Source: Falsiroseomonas oleicola
Lineage (GTDB): Bacteria > Pseudomonadota > Alphaproteobacteria > Acetobacterales > Acetobacteraceae
Assembly: GCF_019029495.1 (NCBI RefSeq)
Contig: NZ_JAERQM010000001.1
Coordinates: forward strand, 62,001 to 126,000
Reading direction: 5' to 3'
Length of the DNA: 64,000 bases
Part shown: in pieces, positions 45,090 through 57,984 of the stretch
Layout of the letters: each line of letters opens with the position of its first letter
How positions within the stretch are numbered: the stretch's first letter is position 1
Translations under genes and position numbers: made by a program
Notes under the pieces: generated by a model
Told to the model about the DNA's origin: nothing
What the model saw: only the letters and a program-made list of their open reading frames with translations
Databases searched by the model: none

Positions 45090-45120
45090 CTTGCCATGGC
45101 GATCCCATCGCCATGGCAAG
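45090..45120. promoter_or_regulatory. Strong inverted repeat in RTX leader
   Basis: CTTGCCATGGCGAT / ATCGCCATGGCAAG, a perfect 14-bp inverted repeat with a 3-base loop, ending 50 bp before the RTX start ATG. Could be a dyad operator or an RNA hairpin in the leader; it contains two CCATGG sites. Confidence 0.5.
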
Positions 45121-45169
45121 TCTCCGGACAAGGCTCGGAAGACGTGCCCACGGCAAGAAAGAGAATAAA

Positions 45170-46906
45170 ATGGCAACCGTCTTCGTGAACCTCGGCAATA
45201 CCGACAACACCATCACCTTCGGCGACGACGACCACATCGTCACCGGCGAGAACGGCAACAACACGCTGACCTTCGGTGGCGGCCAGGATTCCCTGACGCT
45301 GGGCAACGGCAACAACACGCTGACGCTGGCCGGCGGCGCCGATCGCATCTCGGCCGGAGGTGGCAACAACACCATCACCGTCTCGGGCCTCAGCGACAGC
45401 CGCATCGTCCTCCAGGGCGGCAACAACACGGTCTCGGTCGCCGATGGCGCGACCATCATCCAGGCCGGAAACGGCTTGAACACCCTGACCGCCGGCGACG
45501 GCATCAACCGCATCGTGGTGGGCAACGGCGTCAACGCCATCACCAGCGGCGACGGCGACAGCCGGATCCTGGTCGGTGACGGCGACGCCAATACCATCAC
45601 GGTCGGCACCGGCGCCAACCGCATCCTCCTCGGCGACGGCACCGCCAATACGCTGAGCGCCGGCGGCGGCGGCAACATCGTCGCCGTCTCCGCCGCGGCC
45701 CTCGGCACGGATTCGATCCGCGGCGGGCTGGAGACCGGCGATGGCAGCGGCAACGCCATCAATGTGACCACGGCGGGCCTGGTCGGCGTCGCGGGCGTCA
45801 GCGGCTTCGAATTCTTCCGCCTGTCGCAGGACGGGGCGAACAGCATGACCCTGACCGATGCCAATTTCGCCCGCCTGCCCGGCGGCGAGATCACCGTCTT
45901 CGGCGGCGCCATGGGCAATACCGTGGATGCGTCGGCGCTCGCGGCCGCCAATGGCGTGCTGGTCCGCGGTGGGATCGGCCTCGATGTCTTCCTCGGCGGC
46001 GCCGGGGTGGACACGCTGAGCTACACGGCCAGCAGCGACGCCATCTCGATCAACCTCGCCACGGGGCTTGCCTCCGGCGGTGATGCGGCCGGCGATGTCT
46101 TCAGCGGCTTCGAGAATCTGCAGGGCAGCGCCCATGCGGACCGCCTGGTCGGCAATGCGCAGGCCAATCTGATCGAAGGCGGCAACGGCAACGACCTGAT
46201 CAACGGCGGGGCCGGGGACGACACGCTGCTGGGCGGCGCCGGCGAGGATACCATCAATGGCGGCCTCGGCGCCGACCGCATGGAAGGCGGCAGCGGCAAT
46301 GACCGCTATGTGGTGGACAATGCCGGCGACGAGGTGATCGAGGAAGCGGGCGGCGGCACGGCCGACCTGGTGCTGTCCAGCATCAGTTGGACGCTGACGG
46401 CCGAGGTCGAGAACCTGAACCTCCTGGGCACCGCCGTCAGGGGCACCGGCAACGACCAGGCCAACCGGATCATGGGCCAGGATGCCGACAACCAGATTTT
46501 CGGCGGTGGCGGCGACGACACGCTGCTGGGCGGCGCGGGTAACGACACGCTGGTGGGTGGGCTGGGCGCGGACCAGTTGACGGGCGGCGCGGATGCCGAC
46601 TCCTTCGCCTTCATCAGCGCGCTCGGGGTCGGCGAGGTCGACACCATCACGGACTTCACCGTGGGGTCCGACATGATCCTGCTCCTCGACAACGTCTTCC
46701 GGACGCTGCCGGGCGGGCCGCTGGATGCCGATGCCTTCTTCCTGGGCGCGGCGGCGGCGGATGCCGATCATCGCATCCTCTATGACGCGGCGACCGGTAT
46801 CCTCGCCTTCGACGTGGATGGCACCGGTGCGAGCGAGGCCGTGACCTTCGCCATCCTGTCGACCGGATTGGCGATGTCGGCGTCCGACATCCTGGTCTTC
46901 GGCTGA
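45170..46906 (+). CDS. RTX calcium-binding repeat protein, predicted type I secreted
   Basis: 578 residues from ATG 45170 behind AGAAAGAG. No N-terminal signal. Residues about 10-190 are an array of Asn/Thr/Gly repeats (GNGNNTLTLAGG, GGGNNTITVSG style). Residues about 335-390 and 450-490 hold classic RTX nonapeptides (GGNGNDLING, GGAGDDTLLGG, GGAGEDTINGG; GGGGDDTLLGG, GGAGNDTLVGG). The C-terminus (TITDFTVGSDMILLLDNVF to SASDILVF) matches the end region of many type I secreted RTX proteins. No enzyme domain seen: probably an adhesin, matrix or S-layer-like protein. No ABC/MFP export genes are adjacent. Confidence 0.88.
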   Translation: MATVFVNLGNTDNTITFGDDDHIVTGENGNNTLTFGGGQDSLTLGNGNNTLTLAGGADRISAGGGNNTITVSGLSDSRIVLQGGNNTVSVADGATIIQAGNGLNTLTAGDGINRIVVGNGVNAITSGDGDSRILVGDGDANTITVGTGANRILLGDGTANTLSAGGGGNIVAVSAAALGTDSIRGGLETGDGSGNAINVTTAGLVGVAGVSGFEFFRLSQDGANSMTLTDANFARLPGGEITVFGGAMGNTVDASALAAANGVLVRGGIGLDVFLGGAGVDTLSYTASSDAISINLATGLASGGDAAGDVFSGFENLQGSAHADRLVGNAQANLIEGGNGNDLINGGAGDDTLLGGAGEDTINGGLGADRMEGGSGNDRYVVDNAGDEVIEEAGGGTADLVLSSISWTLTAEVENLNLLGTAVRGTGNDQANRIMGQDADNQIFGGGGDDTLLGGAGNDTLVGGLGADQLTGGADADSFAFISALGVGEVDTITDFTVGSDMILLLDNVFRTLPGGPLDADAFFLGAAAADADHRILYDAATGILAFDVDGTGASEAVTFAILSTGLAMSASDILVFG

Positions 46907-49299: not shown

Positions 49300-49424
49300 C
49301 TGCCATGAACCGGTTCCTGAATCGGCGTCAACCCGGCCAAGGACCCTGGTGGCGCATGTGGCGGGCCAGGAAGGGTGCGCCGCGCGCCGGGTCGCGGCAC
49401 CAGTCGCGTCACGCGCATTTTCAA

Positions 49425-49441
49425 TTGCGATTGACTCGCAA
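49425..49441. promoter_or_regulatory. Fur-like inverted repeat upstream of TonB receptor
   Basis: TTGCGA - 5 bases - TCGCAA, perfect 6-bp arms, about 100 bp upstream of the receptor start in an otherwise GC-rich leader. The layout resembles iron-regulator operators of alphaproteobacteria; assignment to Fur is inference. Confidence 0.5.
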
Positions 49442-49539
49442 CTGCGGCGGGATCACAAGGGCGGCGGGGACGCGCTCCGCGACCCTGAACCGGCTCCTCC
49501 CGCATAACCCGGGTGGCCGCCACAGGACCATTTCCAACC

Positions 49540-51753
49540 ATGGAGACCACCCACCGTCGTGGCGCTGCGCGCTCGCGCCGCGCACGCCTGTTGCTGTCCG
49601 CCCTGCCCTGGCTGCTGCCCGCCGCCGCGCTCGGCCAGAATGCCTCCGAACAAGACCCGCTGCGTCTGCCCCGCATCACCGCGGAGGCCGATCGCGCCGC
49701 GCCGGAAGCAGCCCGCCTCGCCGACGAGGTCCCCTCCGTCCGCATCCCGCGCGCGGTCTTCGACACGCTGCCCAGCGAACGCGCCGGCGACATCCTGCCC
49801 CGCCTGCCCGGCGTCGTGACCTCCGGCCCGCCCGGCGAGGCGAAGTCCTTTGGCCTGCGCGGCCTGACGCCGGACTATACCCGCGTGCAGGTGGATGGGC
49901 TGCAACTGCCGTCCGGCGCGCAGGGCCGGGCGCTGGAGCTGATGAACCTGCCCGGCTTCCTGCTGGAGGAGGTCGGCATCCTGCGCAATCCGGATGCCAG
50001 CACCGATTCGGATGGCATTGGCGGCCGCGTCTCGCTGCGCCTGCGCGCCCTGCCGCAGCAGGATGTGACGGAGGTACGGCTGGCCGCCGGCGGCCGCGAT
50101 TCGCTGTTCGACGGCCGCCACTTCACCACCAGCGCGCTGATGGCCCGCCGCTTCGGCGAAGGCTTTGGCGTGATGGGCGCGGTCACGCTCGACCGGCGCC
50201 AGATCATCAAGGTGAAGGATTTTTCCGAACGCACCTTCCAGGGCGGCCCCGGCGGCGCCGGCCAGTTGATCGACGAAGCCGAGCCCAAGGACTCGCGAAA
50301 TCTCGACGCCTTCCTCAATCTCGGCTGGCAGTGGGATGGCGGGCAGCTCACCGTCCGTCCCTTCCTGTTCGATGAGACGATCGACAACGGCAAGCAGCGC
50401 GACGCCTATCGCCGCCTGACCGGCCAGCTCATCAGCCGAAGCCGTGGCGAGGGCGATGAGCGGCTGACGCTCGGCGGCACCGCCATCAGCCTGCGCCAGG
50501 CCCTGGGTGCCCAGGTGACCATGGAGATGGACGCGGCCTTCTCCCTCGCCGATTTCGCCAGCGAGAACACCAGCCGCGTCACCGGCGCCACCGGCGCCTT
50601 CTCCGAGGCGTCCCGCGAGCGCAGCCGGATCGACGACCAGCAATATGACTTCGGCCTGCGCTTCGCCTGGCGGCCGCCGGCCTTGCCGGGGCATGAGCTG
50701 CGGACGGGTGTCCAGGTCCGGCATCTGTCGCGCGACAGCGACGCCGATCTGTACACGCTGGACGCCCAGGACCGCGTGACCCAGACTGCGGCCAACCTCG
50801 CCCGGTCGCGCGACGCCGACTACACAGCCAGCGAGACCTACCTCGCCGGCTTCGTGCAGGATCGATGGACGATCAGGCGGCTGACCATCTCGCCCGGCCT
50901 GCGCGTGGAACAGGTTTCGTTGGACCTCTCCGGATCGCGGGGCAGTTCGACGCCGGGCTACACCGATGTGCTGCCCTCGCTGCCCGCGGTGTTCCGCCTG
51001 ACCGACACGCTGTCGTTGCGTGGCGCCGTCAGCCGCCAGGTGAACCGCCCGACATTGCAGGAAATGGCGCCCGGCTTCACCGTGCGCGGCAATCGCAGCT
51101 ATTACGGCAATCCGGATCTGGAGCCCGCGCGGTCCTGGTCCTGGGATGCGGGCATCGAATACGCGACGCGGGATGTCTTCCTCTCGGCCGGCGTCTTCCT
51201 GCGGCAGATCACCGATGTGGTGGAAGCCGCCGAGACCGCGACCAACACCTACAACTATTCCAATGTCGGCAATGGCCGGGTGAAGGGGCTGGAATTCGAG
51301 CAGCGGCTCGGCGCCGCTTTGCTCGGCATGCCCGCTTTGGCACCGCTGACCCTGCGGCTGAACCAGACCTTCCTGGACAGCCGGGTGAACGACCCCGCCA
51401 CCGGCCCGCGCCGCTTCAGCGAGGTGCCGCGCTTCGTCGGCAATGCCGGGCTGGAATGGAACGACCGGCAGACCGGCACGGTGCTGGCGGCCAATGTCAC
51501 CTACACCTCCACCCGGCTGATCCGCAGCTACCAGGGCAACGGGTCGCAGCTCTACAAGGAGATCAACCCGACCACCTTCCTCGACCTGTCCGCGCAGCAG
51601 CGGGTGGCGCCGGGCGTGGTGGTCTTCGGCACGGCACAGAACCTGCTGAACCAGAACCGCGACGAATTCGAGATGACGGATGACATCCTGTCGCGCCGCG
51701 CCACGATCGACAGCGGGCGGACCTTCTTCGTCGGCGTTCGGATCAGTTTGTAG
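49540..51753 (+). CDS. TonB-dependent outer-membrane receptor
   Basis: 737 residues from ATG 49540. Signal peptide RRARLLLSALPWLLPAAALG; plug domain with PRAVFDTLPSERAGDILPRLPGVVTS and SFGLRGLTPDYTRVQVDGLQLPSG; barrel ending GRTFFVGVRISL. This is the group of TonB receptors with long plugs that includes siderophore, heme and glycan receptors. Ligand not evident, but Fur-like repeats at 49425 and 51772 suggest iron. Head of a three-gene module. Confidence 0.92.
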   Translation: METTHRRGAARSRRARLLLSALPWLLPAAALGQNASEQDPLRLPRITAEADRAAPEAARLADEVPSVRIPRAVFDTLPSERAGDILPRLPGVVTSGPPGEAKSFGLRGLTPDYTRVQVDGLQLPSGAQGRALELMNLPGFLLEEVGILRNPDASTDSDGIGGRVSLRLRALPQQDVTEVRLAAGGRDSLFDGRHFTTSALMARRFGEGFGVMGAVTLDRRQIIKVKDFSERTFQGGPGGAGQLIDEAEPKDSRNLDAFLNLGWQWDGGQLTVRPFLFDETIDNGKQRDAYRRLTGQLISRSRGEGDERLTLGGTAISLRQALGAQVTMEMDAAFSLADFASENTSRVTGATGAFSEASRERSRIDDQQYDFGLRFAWRPPALPGHELRTGVQVRHLSRDSDADLYTLDAQDRVTQTAANLARSRDADYTASETYLAGFVQDRWTIRRLTISPGLRVEQVSLDLSGSRGSSTPGYTDVLPSLPAVFRLTDTLSLRGAVSRQVNRPTLQEMAPGFTVRGNRSYYGNPDLEPARSWSWDAGIEYATRDVFLSAGVFLRQITDVVEAAETATNTYNYSNVGNGRVKGLEFEQRLGAALLGMPALAPLTLRLNQTFLDSRVNDPATGPRRFSEVPRFVGNAGLEWNDRQTGTVLAANVTYTSTRLIRSYQGNGSQLYKEINPTTFLDLSAQQRVAPGVVVFGTAQNLLNQNRDEFEMTDDILSRRATIDSGRTFFVGVRISL

Positions 51754-51771
51754 CGCTTGACCCAAAGCCAA

Positions 51772-51790
51772 TTGCGAGGCATTCTCATTC
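51772..51790. promoter_or_regulatory. Second Fur-like site before propeller gene
   Basis: TTGCGAGGCATTCTCATTC. Shares TTGCGA with the receptor site and includes ATTCTCATT, similar to the ATTCTCAT half-site common in Fur boxes. It lies 102 bp before the propeller start. Confidence 0.4.
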
Positions 51791-51891
51791 GTGGGGATGC
51801 CTTCCGCAACCCTGAACAGGCGACCGTCAGCGACCCCTGCGGGGGCGCCCCGGCCACAGGGCCGGGCCGGTCGCCGAATTTGGAACACCCC

Positions 51892-53604
51892 ATGGATATT
51901 CATATGACGGCCGCCATCGGCGTGCTGCCGCGCGATCCCTCCGCGATCGAGGCGGCCGCGCGCGCCGAGGTGAAGGCGACGCTGCGCCTCGATGACGCGA
52001 TCCTGGTCGCGACCCAGGCCGGCCTGCTGCGCTACGAATCCGGCCAGAAGCTGGCCCCCCTGCCCGGCCTGCCGGCGGAGGAAGTCCGCGGCCTCGGCCC
52101 GGCACCGGGCGGCTTCGTCGCGGTGATCGGCCGCCGCGTTCTGCAGGCCGATGGCACCGGCCGCGTCCTGCGCTGGATCGAGGGGCCGGAGGGCGAGAAG
52201 CTCGGCCCGGTCACCGCCGCCTCCGGCCGCATCCTGGCCGGCAGCAAGACCGGCGTCTTCGCCTTCGGTGAGGCGGGCTGGACCCGCCTGCTGGGCGAAA
52301 CCGGCTTCGAGGTGATCCGAATCTGGGAACAGCCCGGCCGCATCCTGGTGGCGGTGAAGAAGCAGGGCATGCAGCGCCTGCCGGCCCTGGCCGAGAGCCT
52401 GGACGGCGGCGTGACCTGGACCCTCACGGAGATGGGCGATTACGGCGACATCGTCGTCGCAGCCGATGCCACGCGCATCGTCACCAAGTGGCGCGGTGCC
52501 CGCCCGCGCACGGCGATGCCGGGCGGCTACAAGAAGCATCCGATCACCGCCGCCGAATTGCGCGCCGATGGCGGCGTGCTGGTGCTGGACGGCGACAAGG
52601 CGGAGATCGCCGGCCCGGGGCGCCGCAAGGCCGAGATCTTCCACCCGGCGTTGGCCGATGCGGAACATGTGCATCTGCTGCCCGACGGCATCCTGTTCGG
52701 CGGCGTGCAGGGCCTGTTCCTGTTCGACCCGCTGCGCCATCGCGTCAGCGACCTCTCGGCCGGCCTGTTCACGGACCGCACCCTCGGCAAGCGCAAGCGG
52801 CTGTTCGCGCTGGATGGCGTCAATGTCCTCGCCACCTGCTCCTTCGGCAGCTTCCACTCCGTCGATGGCGGCGCGAGCTGGCAGAAGGCGGATGCGGAAT
52901 GGGACGTGCTGGATGCCGAGCGCATGGCCCGCGCCGAGGACGGCCGCTGGTTCCTGCTGACGCAGCGCGGGCTTTTCGTCACCCGCGACAATGGCGCGCG
53001 GATCGACTACCTGAAGCCGAAGCTGGCCAATGGCGTCCGCCATTTCGGCGAGTTGCGCAGCCTGGCGGTCGGTGCCGGCAGGCTGTGGCTCGGCACCAAG
53101 CAGGGCCTGTTCAGCGCCGCGCTGGACAATCCCGAGCATCTCGGCCCGGTCGATGCGGTGCCGGCGGCCTCCATCGAGGGCCTGGCCTTCAGCAAGGACG
53201 GGCTGCTGATGGCCGTCGATGACCATGGCCTGCTGCGCCTGGACGCGGCCGGCACCGTCGCGCCCTTCGCCGATGTGGCGCTGCATGAGGCGAGCTTCGT
53301 CACCGATGGCGCGACCCTGCTGGCCACCGCCGAGGACGGGCTGGTGGCGATCGCCGCCGATGGCACGACCACCGACGCGACGCCGGACGACGCCAAGGGT
53401 GGCGAATTCAGCCTGACGGCACGGGAGGGTCGCATCCTCGCCTGGAACCGCCAGGCCGCCTGGCAGAAGCGCGAAGGCAGCGCCTGGCAGGCCGTGCCGG
53501 GCTTCCCCGCCGGCGTGCGCTCCGTCGCGCTGCTGCCGGATGGCACGGCGCTGCTGACCGACCGCGCCCGGGTCTCCGGCTTCAGCCTGCCCGATGCCGG
53601 GTGA
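51892..53604 (+). CDS. Asp-box (BNR-like) beta-propeller protein, unknown
   Basis: 570 residues from ATG 51892; the ribosome site is weak. No signal peptide. Repeated blades with Asp-box motifs S-x-D-G-G-x-x-W: SLDGGVTW, SVDGGASW, and a weaker TRDNG. Blades read ILAGSKTGVFAFGEAGW, ILFGGVQGLFLFDPL, LWLGTKQGLFSAAL, LLATAEDGLVAIA, making a seven- or eight-bladed propeller likely. Sialidase-like folds use such boxes, but no sialidase catalytic set is apparent. Lies between the TonB receptor and an ABC-type membrane protein, overlapping the latter by 11 bp. Confidence 0.8.
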   Translation: MDIHMTAAIGVLPRDPSAIEAAARAEVKATLRLDDAILVATQAGLLRYESGQKLAPLPGLPAEEVRGLGPAPGGFVAVIGRRVLQADGTGRVLRWIEGPEGEKLGPVTAASGRILAGSKTGVFAFGEAGWTRLLGETGFEVIRIWEQPGRILVAVKKQGMQRLPALAESLDGGVTWTLTEMGDYGDIVVAADATRIVTKWRGARPRTAMPGGYKKHPITAAELRADGGVLVLDGDKAEIAGPGRRKAEIFHPALADAEHVHLLPDGILFGGVQGLFLFDPLRHRVSDLSAGLFTDRTLGKRKRLFALDGVNVLATCSFGSFHSVDGGASWQKADAEWDVLDAERMARAEDGRWFLLTQRGLFVTRDNGARIDYLKPKLANGVRHFGELRSLAVGAGRLWLGTKQGLFSAALDNPEHLGPVDAVPAASIEGLAFSKDGLLMAVDDHGLLRLDAAGTVAPFADVALHEASFVTDGATLLATAEDGLVAIAADGTTTDATPDDAKGGEFSLTAREGRILAWNRQAAWQKREGSAWQAVPGFPAGVRSVALLPDGTALLTDRARVSGFSLPDAG

Positions 53605-54535
53605 GATGGTGATGGGGGCGGCGCGCGCCGTCCCCGCGCATCTTGCGGCGGAGATGGCGGCGACGCTCTGGCGGCTGCGCTGGTTCGTCGCGGCGCTGAC
53701 GGCGGCGCTGGCCGCCAAGGCGGCCGCCATGCCCGCCTATGCCTGGCTGGCGCGCGATGCGGTCGCGGCGCTGCGCCTGCCGGAAGCGACGCTGGGCGGG
53801 CTGGTGGCGGACCTCGCCCCGGTCGCCGCCGCCGTGCTGCTGGCCGTCGCCTGCTGCGAATTCGCGGAGAAGATCGCCTCCAAGGCCATGGAGGCGCGCA
53901 TCCTGGTCAACCTCCAGCGCACCTACCTGGAACGCCGCCTGGCGGAGGATGCGCCGCGCGATGTCAGCCAGGTGCTGTTCGGCTGCGAGGTGGCGCGCAA
54001 AGGCTTCGAGGCCGTCTACAAGGATGGCTGGCGCATCCCGGCGGAGATCACCGGCGTGCTCGCCTGGCAATTGACCCTTGGCGCCGAATGGGTGCCGCTG
54101 ATGCTGGCCGCCGTGCTTCCGGCGCTGGCCTGCGTCTGGCTGCTGGGCCATCGGCTGGAAGCGATCAGCGGCCAGATTCTCGGCTGGCAGCGGCACATCG
54201 CCGCGACCACGGGACGCGGGCAGGAGGGCGATTTCGCCGCGACGCAGGAACGCATCTTCCGCGGCACGCTGCGCTTCGAGGTGCTGAAATGGCTCACCGA
54301 GCGCGGGCTGGACGCGATGCTCTGGAGCTTCGTCGGCGCCTCCGCTTTGCTCGCCTGGTACCTGGCGCCCGCCTTGTTGCCGGGCGGCGGGGAGATTGCC
54401 GGCGCGGCGGCCTTCCTGGTGAACCTGCGGCTGCTGATGAAGCCGCTGTCGGATATCGGCAAGATCTATGTGAAGTGGCGCGAGGCCTCGCCGGCCATCG
54501 CCGCGGTCTATGGCCGACCCGGGCGCGCCAGATAA
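53594..54535 (+). CDS. ABC-exporter-type transmembrane domain without ATPase
   Basis: About 313 residues (ATG 53594; ATG 53606 follows GGGTGAG and is an equally good start). Helices near 25-45, 75-95, 155-180, 240-265 and 275-295, with an ABC type-1 fold look: ARILVNLQRTYLERRLAEDAPRDVSQVLFGCEVARKGFEAVYKDGW (coupling-helix style), EAISGQILGWQRH, FLVNLRLLMKPLSDIGKIYVKWREASPAIAAV. The chain ends where a nucleotide-binding domain should begin; no Walker motifs and no ATPase gene follow. It resembles the NBD-less SbmA/BacA or the stripped half-exporters, but the motifs do not settle that. Starts inside the propeller gene, so co-translated. Confidence 0.72.
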   Translation: MPGEMVMGAARAVPAHLAAEMAATLWRLRWFVAALTAALAAKAAAMPAYAWLARDAVAALRLPEATLGGLVADLAPVAAAVLLAVACCEFAEKIASKAMEARILVNLQRTYLERRLAEDAPRDVSQVLFGCEVARKGFEAVYKDGWRIPAEITGVLAWQLTLGAEWVPLMLAAVLPALACVWLLGHRLEAISGQILGWQRHIAATTGRGQEGDFAATQERIFRGTLRFEVLKWLTERGLDAMLWSFVGASALLAWYLAPALLPGGGEIAGAAAFLVNLRLLMKPLSDIGKIYVKWREASPAIAAVYGRPGRAR

Positions 54536-54550
54536 CGCAACAACCTTGCG

Positions 54551-54591
54551 CCCTGGCCAATCCTCCCCACAGACTGTCGGATTGGCCAGGG
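54551..54591. promoter_or_regulatory. Leader hairpin before asparaginase gene
   Basis: Perfect 13-bp inverted repeat CCCTGGCCAATCC / GGATTGGCCAGGG, 15-base loop. The 3' arm ends 10 bases before ATG 54601 and its last bases lie in the Shine-Dalgarno region (CCAGGGAGGG), so the fold could hide the ribosome site. It could also terminate the upstream unit or be an operator. Confidence 0.55.
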
Positions 54592-56230: not shown

Positions 56231-57040
56231 TCAGGACGAGGTGTCCTCGACCCCGTCATCCTCGGCCGCCTCGACCTCCGCAAGCGCCGCCTTGCCTTCG
56301 TGGAATGTGACGATGCTGTCGGGCAGCCCAATCAGGACCAGCGGACATGGATTGCCGACGCCACGGCGAATGCGGTCCTCCAGCTTCCGCCAATGCGTCG
56401 TCGCCTCCCCGAATTTGTCCGCCACGAATTTCTCGGTGAAGGCTTCGCGGAAAGCGAGGGGGTTCTTGGCGCGGGTCGTCCGTCTGGTGATGTCCGCGAG
56501 CTGCCGGGCGGTTGGATGATAGCCCCACCCCTTCAGCTCCTCCAACGATCCGAGTTCGCGCTCTTCCAGGAAACGCCGCACCAGGTCCCGCATATTCGCG
56601 TGCAGGGACTTCCCCCTGGTGACGATGATGCCAACCGAAATGGCGCCATCGGCATGGAGCCGCTTAAAATTCTCCAGATCCCGGTCGTAGAAGGGGTCCT
56701 TGTTGTTCCATTCGATCTCGAGCGCAAGGCGGGAGCCGTCCTCATAGCTGCGCACGTGGTCGACCTCATGGGATTGGCTTTCCCTTGGGACGCCGTTGAT
56801 TCGCTTCTCAACCACAAAGGTTGTCTTGAGCCAGCCCTTGGCGGCCAGAGCCCGGCGTAGGCGCTGTGTCCCCTTCGACTCACCGCCGCCACCCGCCATG
56901 ATTTCTTCAATCGGGATGGTCGTCGTCGCGAGGGCGCTTTCCAACTCCTCGGCCGCCTGGGGGAAGTCGACTCCCAGGATGGCCTTCGCGTGCGACAGGA
57001 ACTCGACCTGAAAGCCTTTTTGAACCAGCGATTCGAACAT
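56231..57040 (-). CDS. BglII/BstYI-family type II restriction endonuclease
   Basis: 269 residues. Family blocks LVQKGFQVEFLSHAKAILG, then TFVVEKRINGVPRESQSHEVDHVRSYEDG and the catalytic ALEIEWNNKDPFYDRDLENFKRLHADGAISVGIIVTRG, where the Glu/Asn/Lys cluster fits the PD-(D/E)XK-like active site of the BglII/BstYI family. Recognition sequence cannot be read; relatives cut AGATCT or RGATCY. It follows its methylase gene by 55 bp, a gap holding a hairpin, and its start ATG has no Shine-Dalgarno. Lower GC than neighbours suggests acquisition. Confidence 0.9.
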   Translation of the reverse strand: MFESLVQKGFQVEFLSHAKAILGVDFPQAAEELESALATTTIPIEEIMAGGGGESKGTQRLRRALAAKGWLKTTFVVEKRINGVPRESQSHEVDHVRSYEDGSRLALEIEWNNKDPFYDRDLENFKRLHADGAISVGIIVTRGKSLHANMRDLVRRFLEERELGSLEELKGWGYHPTARQLADITRRTTRAKNPLAFREAFTEKFVADKFGEATTHWRKLEDRIRRGVGNPCPLVLIGLPDSIVTFHEGKAALAEVEAAEDDGVEDTSS

Positions 57041-57051
57041 GCAAGGAGGCT

Positions 57052-57078
57052 ATCTGGGCAGGAAGACGCTGCCCAGAT
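57052..57078. terminator. Hairpin between methylase and endonuclease genes
   Basis: Perfect 10-bp stem ATCTGGGCAG / CTGCCCAGAT, 7-base loop, within the 55-bp gap of the restriction-modification operon and 12 bp before the endonuclease start on the minus strand. A partial terminator or a translation brake for the endonuclease is plausible. Confidence 0.5.
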
Positions 57079-57095
57079 CGAAAGTTCAGACCTGC

Positions 57096-57755
57096 CTATT
57101 CAAGCGCCAATTGGCGCTGCTCTGCCGCCGAATTATGGGCGTAGGTCTTCCAGGTCGGCTCATAATCCTCGGACTGGTTGCCCCAGACAGCCCAGCCGGG
57201 ACGCGGTCCGCGCGCGAACATCTCGAGCCGAGGGCCGGGGCTGCATCCCTCGATGAGGGCATATTGTTCGTCGGGCTTGCGGCTGTGCTCCCGCTTCCGG
57301 GTGCCGATGTAATTCACCTGCGTGCGCCCAGGCTGCAAGGTCCGTGCGTTCTTTCCGCGCGTGCCGAAAAGCAGGATCTCGGTGACATTGCGAAAATAGA
57401 ACCCAACGCCCCGGCCATCGGAACCACCATCCTTCCGAAGCTTGTGCCAGACAATATTGGATTTGTACTGGAATCCCCAGGCCTTCATGACGTGAAGACC
57501 CTCGGGCAAAAGCGCGTTGGGCACCCAGAGATACAGATGGGCCGTCGGCAGAAGGCAGATATCCACCGGAAGCGCGCTGATCTCCTGAAGCGTCATGGTG
57601 CTGTAGCGGGACAGGCGCTTGTGCTCCGGGGCCATCTTCCCGGTGCGATTCACGAACTGCCAGGGCGGGTCGGCCAGGATCGTCGCGAACTTCTGGGCAC
57701 CAACCGCCTTCCGGAAATCCGCGGAGGCGTCCGGTTCAGGCTGTGTGGGGGTCAT
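57096..57755 (-). CDS. MT-A70-type DNA adenine methyltransferase
   Basis: 219 residues from ATG 57755; the upstream in-frame extension overlaps the small gene before it. Catalytic DPPW at residues 29-32 (KFATILADPPWQF) and the SAM/target blocks YLWVPNALLPEGLHVMKAWGFQYKSNIVWHKLRKDG and EILLFGTRG. N6-adenine methylation of the same site protects against the BglII/BstYI-like endonuclease next to it. Last block: PGWAVWGNQSED. Confidence 0.9.
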   Translation of the reverse strand: MTPTQPEPDASADFRKAVGAQKFATILADPPWQFVNRTGKMAPEHKRLSRYSTMTLQEISALPVDICLLPTAHLYLWVPNALLPEGLHVMKAWGFQYKSNIVWHKLRKDGGSDGRGVGFYFRNVTEILLFGTRGKNARTLQPGRTQVNYIGTRKREHSRKPDEQYALIEGCSPGPRLEMFARGPRPGWAVWGNQSEDYEPTWKTYAHNSAAEQRQLALE

Positions 57756-57759
57756 GGTC

Positions 57760-57984
57760 CTAAGTCTCGGTCTGGGTTGGGTCGGCCTTGAAGGTGGCCT
57801 CGTAATGCTCCCAGATCTCGATGAAGAGCTGGCTCGGTTCGAGCCCGCGCATCGCGGCATGGGCCTTGAACCGGCGCTTGACGGCGGTGGGAATCCTGAC
57901 CTGAAGCGGCTCCTTGGCGATCGTGCCGCCAGAAGCCGAAGCGCGACGGTCGTCGCCATCGGCGTGGGATGCGATGACTGTCAT
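57760..57984 (-). CDS. Small ribbon-helix-helix-like protein, possible controller
   Basis: 74 residues from ATG 57984; a longer in-frame start at 58020 exists but would run through the palindrome. C-terminal part EPLQVRIPTAVKRRFKAHAAMRGLEPSQLFIEIWEHYEA has the beta-strand, helix, helix pattern of ribbon-helix-helix repressors. It lies 4 bp before the methylase start. An 18-bp palindrome 5 bp upstream suggests it represses its own operon, acting as a restriction-modification controller. Assignment by pattern only. Confidence 0.6.
   Translation of the reverse strand: MTVIASHADGDDRRASASGGTIAKEPLQVRIPTAVKRRFKAHAAMRGLEPSQLFIEIWEHYEATFKADPTQTET

Follow-up and report, generated by a model that had tools for sequence, protein, structure and literature searches.

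An ATPase-less ABC-fold membrane protein encoded with a TonB receptor and an Asp-box propeller: a candidate ferric-ligand uptake cassette in Falsiroseomonas oleicola

Introduction

Several systems have been described in which an ABC-type membrane fold, or a set of inner-membrane proteins outside the ABC class, serves import. The SbmA/BacA (SLiPT) proteins are presented, in the available part of the source, as proton-driven peptide importers of the Gram-negative inner membrane that have a type IV ABC fold and no ATPase (PMC13316013). In IrtAB and YbtPQ, an exporter-type ABC fold imports siderophores, according to the accessible text of two reports (PMC10246721, PMC10967856). HiuABC of Caulobacter crescentus, a system for ferric siderophores, is described in the accessible text as a Fur-regulated receptor gene with non-ABC inner-membrane genes behind it; HiuB contains a PepSY domain and is compared there with a reductase, and HiuC is a small membrane protein (PMC13001220). 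For many TonB receptors, the route by which their ferric ligands pass the inner membrane in the absence of an ABC importer is an open question.

Here, a three-gene set encoding a TonB receptor, an Asp-box propeller and an ATPase-less membrane protein is compared with these systems. The set lies in the window, i.e., the whole 64,000-nucleotide stretch of Falsiroseomonas oleicola DNA that was analysed. An earlier note on this DNA had proposed that the three genes act as a single module whose ligand might carry iron. The reading preferred here, to which a probability of roughly 0.52 is given, is that the two transcription units make up a cassette for uptake of a ferric ligand under control of Fur, in which the inner membrane is crossed without ATP in the manner of SbmA and a cytoplasmic propeller processes the ligand. 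Searches of open-access literature, judged by titles and abstract openings, brought up no description of the three-gene set.

The receptor and propeller genes

The three neighbouring genes share the + strand, with an 11-base overlap between the second and the third; the coordinates confirm this arrangement, which the earlier note had reported. The first gene (49540..51753, + strand; possible earlier GTG start at 49513) encodes a TonB-dependent outer-membrane receptor with plug and barrel (Pfam barrel 5e-45, Plug 1e-11). Its top NCBIfam profile, TIGR01782, remained below its cut-off and was counted against an iron-uptake reading; the TIGR01782 group includes many non-iron receptors. None of the three genes matched any NCBIfam family above cut-off (0/3).

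The second gene (51892..53604, + strand; alternative start 51907) encodes a tandem Asp-box beta-propeller, predicted with high confidence (pLDDT 91). The BNR profile matched it at 1e-4, below the curated cut-off, and the Asp-box repeats were confirmed in the 11 members compared, all of which matched BNR at E<=1 (best 9e-6). The NCBIfam F510_1955 glycosylhydrolase profile likewise gave weak matches in 11/11 members (best 2e-12), the window propeller scoring 27.5 bits and so not reaching the cut-off of 175. Inspection by eye and crude hydropathy revealed no evident signal peptide, in line with what had been noted before. Hydropathy alone cannot settle this point, because the first propeller of one relative (L027) scores 1.72, close to the 1.79 of the window receptor. 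Processing of a ligand by the propeller in the cytoplasm is a tentative proposal, judged somewhat less likely than not.

The membrane protein

The third gene (53594..54535, + strand; alternative start 53606) encodes a protein of 313 aa that is predicted from sequence and model to take the type IV ABC-exporter membrane fold without an ATPase domain. The earlier note had described an exporter-type membrane domain that stops before the nucleotide-binding domain, and this description holds: an ABC nucleotide-binding domain is lacking in the window protein and in 15/15 aligned members, so that, as was also anticipated there, the protein would have to draw on a different source of energy or share an ATPase. 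The 15 members end at a similar position, with short tails in two and an ATPase domain in none. Because these relatives end alike, a truncated or frameshifted ABC gene is ruled out.

No member reached a Pfam or NCBIfam family (0/15). ABC_membrane (PF00664) matched two of the 15, with a best E of 0.052, and membership was not assigned; for ABC_membrane_3 (PF13748), the sole match in the genome was weak and located elsewhere. Membership in the SbmA family was rejected by sequence, since PF05992 matched 0/15 members at E<=1; two other genes of the genome match this profile. A PepSY domain was not detected either.

Structure prediction against ABC folds, which the earlier note had suggested as a check, pointed to an exporter-type membrane fold from a model of moderate quality (pLDDT 75). 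In Foldseek, all 50 matches listed were exporter-type ABC transporters by name, the best TM-score among them being 0.49, and the majority of the structural alignments span only residues 121-313. SbmA structures were absent among the matches listed in both fold searches, which does not speak against a likeness to SbmA. Profile comparison linked the protein to MsbA and Sav1866 at E 0.002. SbmA/BacA proteins are marked by flanking helices TM0a and TM0b, lost coupling helices and proton-coupled import by way of a ladder of glutamates. Besides six long helices, the model of the window protein has a short one at the N-terminus (residues 15-27), and the protein presumably acts as a homodimer. Five positions, D123, D144, E219, E236 and E297, are acidic in 13-15 of the 15 members. 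Import across the inner membrane without ATP by this protein is given about an even chance.

Distribution and organisation of the gene set

The 5.6-Mb genome of the window was searched entire for patterns and paralogs, and 150 family genomes each were searched with the membrane protein and with the propeller profile. Full-length relatives of the membrane protein were found in two of the family genomes only, the source genome, which holds the protein and a paralog at 39%, and G097, which holds copies at 70% and 30%. The genome G102, with a match of 63 residues (E 7e-4), was excluded from the counts. Full-length propeller matches were confined to the same two genomes, and the matches in the other 14 of the 16 matched genomes were short and weak. 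Wider searches with the membrane-protein profile gave strong matches in G000 and G210 among 385 class genomes, and in G000 among 398 phylum genomes, with six weak partial matches in each case; these searches scored at most five candidates per genome, so that misses are possible, and weak matches were left out of the counts. Neither the propeller, the membrane protein nor the cyanobacterial relative of the latter was matched among PLSDB plasmids.

In addition, a scan of GTDB contigs, which relied on two short peptide patterns and is bound to miss relatives, yielded ten loci. Three are cyanobacterial MAGs and two are Elioraea contigs; the others are two from Nitrincola, one from Halomonas and one MAG each of Acidovorax and of an Acetobacteraceae member. 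By translated comparison, the order receptor, propeller(s), membrane protein is found in the window, in the Acetobacteraceae MAG (L019, the closest relative), in Elioraea (L007) and in four beta- or gammaproteobacterial loci (L020, L021, L022 and L027). The number of propeller copies is one in the window, L019 and L007, two in L020 and L027, and three in L021 and L022; in L021, the contig end cuts the receptor and the first propeller is broken. The set thus spans alpha-, beta- and gammaproteobacteria, and this neighbourhood search bears out the proposal of a single module.

The receptor shares the gene block of the membrane protein at 11 of the 12 readable loci (the window, L006, L007, L019, L020, L021, L022, L025, L026, L027 and, divergently oriented, L029), the exception being the second Elioraea locus, L008. 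Three loci stand outside this count: L024 starts at the gene; L023 and L028 duplicate L007 and L008. A receptor and membrane protein without a propeller occur in the cyanobacterial loci L025 (receptor split) and L026, in L006 and in L029, another alphaproteobacterium. Since such propeller-less versions exist, the propeller is dispensable for transport as such.

The locus L006 (6166-9269) is a paralogous pair in the source genome; its membrane protein is 39% identical, the start touches the receptor stop, and the pair has its own Fur-type box and lacks the propeller and the hairpin element described below. In Elioraea, the paralog at L008 (4382-6269) has a PepSY-like gene and the genes of a two-component system beside it, with no receptor on the 6.5-kb contig.

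In a tree of 15 membrane proteins, the three Acetobacteraceae three-gene copies join with support of 100/99, and the cyanobacterial copies together with L029 are split from the others at 98/99; support is weak at several forks, and the tree has three long branches.

The cyanobacterial loci (L025, 7052-10182; L026, 7905-11658; L024, 15-3775) carry two tandem ATPase-less membrane-protein genes followed by an apparent full ABC exporter gene, which is cut short in L025. This arrangement is what would be expected if the membrane protein were a half-transporter that borrows an ATPase in trans and imports a ferric ligand in the manner of IrtAB and YbtPQ, whose exporter-type fold, in the accessible accounts, likewise serves siderophore import; ABC ATPase genes of other types also lie a few kb off in L007 and L020. 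However, no ATPase gene was noticed by eye within the alpha-, beta- and gammaproteobacterial cassettes, and the loops that join helices 2-3 (119-123) and 4-5 (209-211) of the model form no separate coupling helix, at low confidence in these parts. The alignment with Sav1866 falls 11 residues short near the second coupling helix, and another profile alignment places the gaps elsewhere. A borrowed ATPase is considered unlikely.

Fur-type boxes and iron-related neighbours

The earlier note had pointed to Fur-like repeats on both sides of the receptor gene, and two candidate boxes stand there. The first, TTGCGATTGACTCGCAA (49425..49441, + strand), has zero mismatches to the pattern and overlaps a putative -35 element, TTGACT (49431-49436); the second, TTGCGAGGCATTCTCAT (51772..51788, + strand), is degenerate, with two mismatches. 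Next to the latter, TTGACC (51757..51762, + strand) is a putative -35 element of a second promoter that would serve the propeller and membrane-protein genes, inferred from an equal spacing in 6/6 leaders. In Elioraea, TTGCGATTGACTCGCAA is present in the leader corresponding to the propeller leader. Genome-wide, the pattern TTGCGAWTNANTMKCAW with at most one mismatch gave 18 strand matches at 14 places, and the reversed control gave none. By eye, six of the 14 places lie upstream of TonB-receptor-like frames, namely both receptors linked to a membrane protein and four others; one of the remaining eight precedes an apparent heme-degrading monooxygenase, and seven have no evident iron link. As far as sequence can tell, the TonB receptor of the window lies under a Fur-type box.

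Further iron-related genes recur in the relatives. FecR is found at L020 and L027, a FecI-type sigma factor at L020, and STN-type receptors at L020 and L022. Upstream of the tandem membrane-protein genes in L025 and L026, a receptor is accompanied by an FTR1 permease (E 2e-57 in L026; the L025 copy is 91% identical to it). At each of the four beta/gamma loci, the membrane-protein gene ends in an ATGA where a Bfd-like gene starts (L020 from 8861; L021, 8076-8282; L022, 8903-9109; L027 from 8903); the L022 copy matches Fer2_BFD at E 5e-5, slightly below cut-off, and the other three resemble it at E<=1e-13. FecI/FecR, Bfd and FTR1 occur in relatives and do not adjoin the window genes, which was counted against an iron cassette. 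With Fur-type boxes and these genes recurring, the suggestion of an iron-bearing ligand fits the data, and an iron role of the cassette is likely.

In L021, L022 and L027, a gene for a protein of about 146 residues separates the receptor gene from the propeller genes, and in L020 it lies downstream of the cassette; the L022 copy, which was scanned, has no Pfam match. A CitMHS-type transporter gene lies downstream in L021, L022 and L027 (L022 copy scanned).

Iron could also be won outside the cytoplasm. The ligand would then be reduced in the periplasm or membrane and stay out of the cytoplasm, and the membrane protein would be a scaffold or a mover of Fe(II). Such a route is proposed for HiuABC, itself a Fur-regulated receptor with a non-ABC inner-membrane set, in the accessible part of that report (PMC13001220), and the cyanobacterial FTR1 beside the receptor and the PepSY-like gene beside the L008 paralog (E 0.002, below cut-off) would suit it. 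It is nevertheless judged quite unlikely: the membrane protein itself has no PepSY domain, and a conserved cytoplasmic propeller would be left without a substrate. The exporter-type fold would also accommodate the opposite direction, with membrane protein and propeller serving to secrete an iron carrier, to recycle it or to expel a toxic one, and with the receptor for re-uptake. Yet no siderophore biosynthesis genes were noticed in the neighbourhoods viewed, and the constant pairing with a receptor and the Bfd-like gene suit import better, which makes export very improbable.

A hairpin in both leaders

Beyond the claims of the earlier note, a hairpin of 23-25 nt, (C/U)GGGG-A-YGC loop GCR-A-CCCUG, was found behind each putative promoter, in the receptor leader (49465..49487, + strand, its GGGGA 35 bases after TTGAC) and in the propeller leader (51792..51814, + strand). 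The pair recurs in two relatives, L019 (3802-3824 and 6128-6150) and L007 (14630-14654 and 12251-12274, - strand). The pattern GGGGAYGC-N2-8-CGCRACCCTG has two matches in the genome, before the receptor and before the propeller, with none in the reversed control, and a covariance model returned only those two hairpins in the genome at E<=0.01. TTGAC precedes GGGGA by 35-37 bases in 6/6 leaders, so the hairpin probably begins near the transcription start.

The minimum-energy folds of 6/6 leaders contain the hairpin, with the outermost pair present or absent. Over only six sequences, the Y-R pair reads C-G in two and U-A in four, a suggestive change. In the alignment, 48/48 cells are paired and a single pair changes on both sides; shuffling reached the pairing and covariation values in 29/500 cases and the number of both-side-changing pairs in 294/500, so the covariation is thin. 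Leader folding energies are ordinary (z -0.3 to -1.3), with the exception of the window propeller leader (z -2.1), in whose centroid structure the outer stem pairs elsewhere.

In Rfam, the hairpin came nowhere near a gathering score (best E 2.8 and 0.54). It was not found in the beta/gamma loci, in the cyanobacterial loci or upstream of the paralogous receptor. Across 200 family genomes, 15 had a match to the model at E<=0.01, with 47.5 and 42.3 bits in G000, 43.9 and 39.9 in G097, and a best of 30.3 elsewhere. Of the 13 places outside these two genomes, 12 overlap a mechanical open frame and were taken as chance. The exception, outside the listed open frames, is a hairpin-like match of 29.1 bits in another family genome (L044, 1501-1534).

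The element may equally be a DNA operator or an RNA structure; the loop of 5 to 7 bases mildly favours RNA.

The genomic site

A second observation beyond the earlier note is that the block (approx. 49300..54590) is absent at this site in the congener G933, where the flanking MFS transporter and asparaginase genes lie some 180 bases apart. These flanks are 84% and 87% identical to those of the window, respectively, and the gap between the aligned stretches measures 182 bases in G933 and 5308 in the window. Genome-wide, the membrane protein is absent from 3/3 congeners, G933 included. The junctions of the block are not sharp, its G+C is 0.704 against 0.702 for the window, and by eye the flanking genes in L019 and L007 differ from those of the window.

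Other features were seen nearby. On the - strand of the window (56231-57959), two adjacent frames resemble what we take to be a BglII-type endonuclease and an MT-A70 adenine methyltransferase, and an open frame at 45113-46906 contains numerous glycine- and aspartate-rich repeats, RTX-like by eye. In Elioraea, apparent Cas1 and Cas9 genes (L007, 1-4436, - strand) lie about 5 kb from the cassette, again by eye.

Proposed mechanism and comparison with known systems

The ferric-ligand uptake cassette could work as follows. Under iron shortage, Fur would leave both promoters, as the boxes suggest. The TonB receptor would then, as expected from its family, admit to the periplasm a ferric complex whose ligand is probably a siderophore that other organisms produce. 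The membrane protein, as a presumed homodimer, would next pass the complex through the inner membrane; like SbmA with its peptides, it would work by alternating access and draw its energy from the proton gradient. The fold in this step is predicted, and we infer its direction, energy and ligand. In the cytoplasm, the tandem propeller might bind, open or hold the ligand so that iron is freed, and in the beta/gamma versions the Bfd-like ferredoxin encoded directly behind the transporter may supply an electron. Finally, the hairpin, which would sit close to the 5' end of each transcript or at the end itself, might place the two units under joint control.

A bolder version of this proposal would see here a second ABC-membrane-derived family of secondary transporters apart from SbmA, performing ATP-free import of ferric siderophores with a dedicated cytoplasmic tandem-propeller enzyme and an undescribed 5' mRNA hairpin linking the units; this is rather doubtful at present. 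The compact cassette itself, in which unrelated bacteria combine a receptor with an ABC-fold protein that lacks the ATPase, makes the question of inner-membrane crossing directly testable. It would also suggest that the ATPase was lost more than once, and it hints at cytoplasmic Asp-box propellers acting as enzymes or carriers.

Among known proteins, GH74, Ycf48-type propellers and virginiamycin B lyase have the Asp-box repeats and propeller fold in common with the window propeller, which differs in having no evident signal peptide and is 8-14% identical to them. IrtAB and YbtPQ share the exporter-type fold with the membrane protein but, in the accessible reports, carry ATPase domains that it lacks. 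SbmA/BacA, as far as their available description goes, resemble it in the type IV ABC membrane fold, predicted here, and in the lack of an ATPase domain; unlike them, the window protein has 313 aa and six long model helices, and it is encoded in a block with a receptor and a propeller. HiuABC resembles the window set in its receptor under Fur-type control and its non-ABC inner-membrane genes, whereas the available part of its description mentions neither a propeller nor an ABC-type membrane fold. Judged on these portions of the sources, HiuABC is the closest functional parallel to the cassette and SbmA the closest mechanical one.
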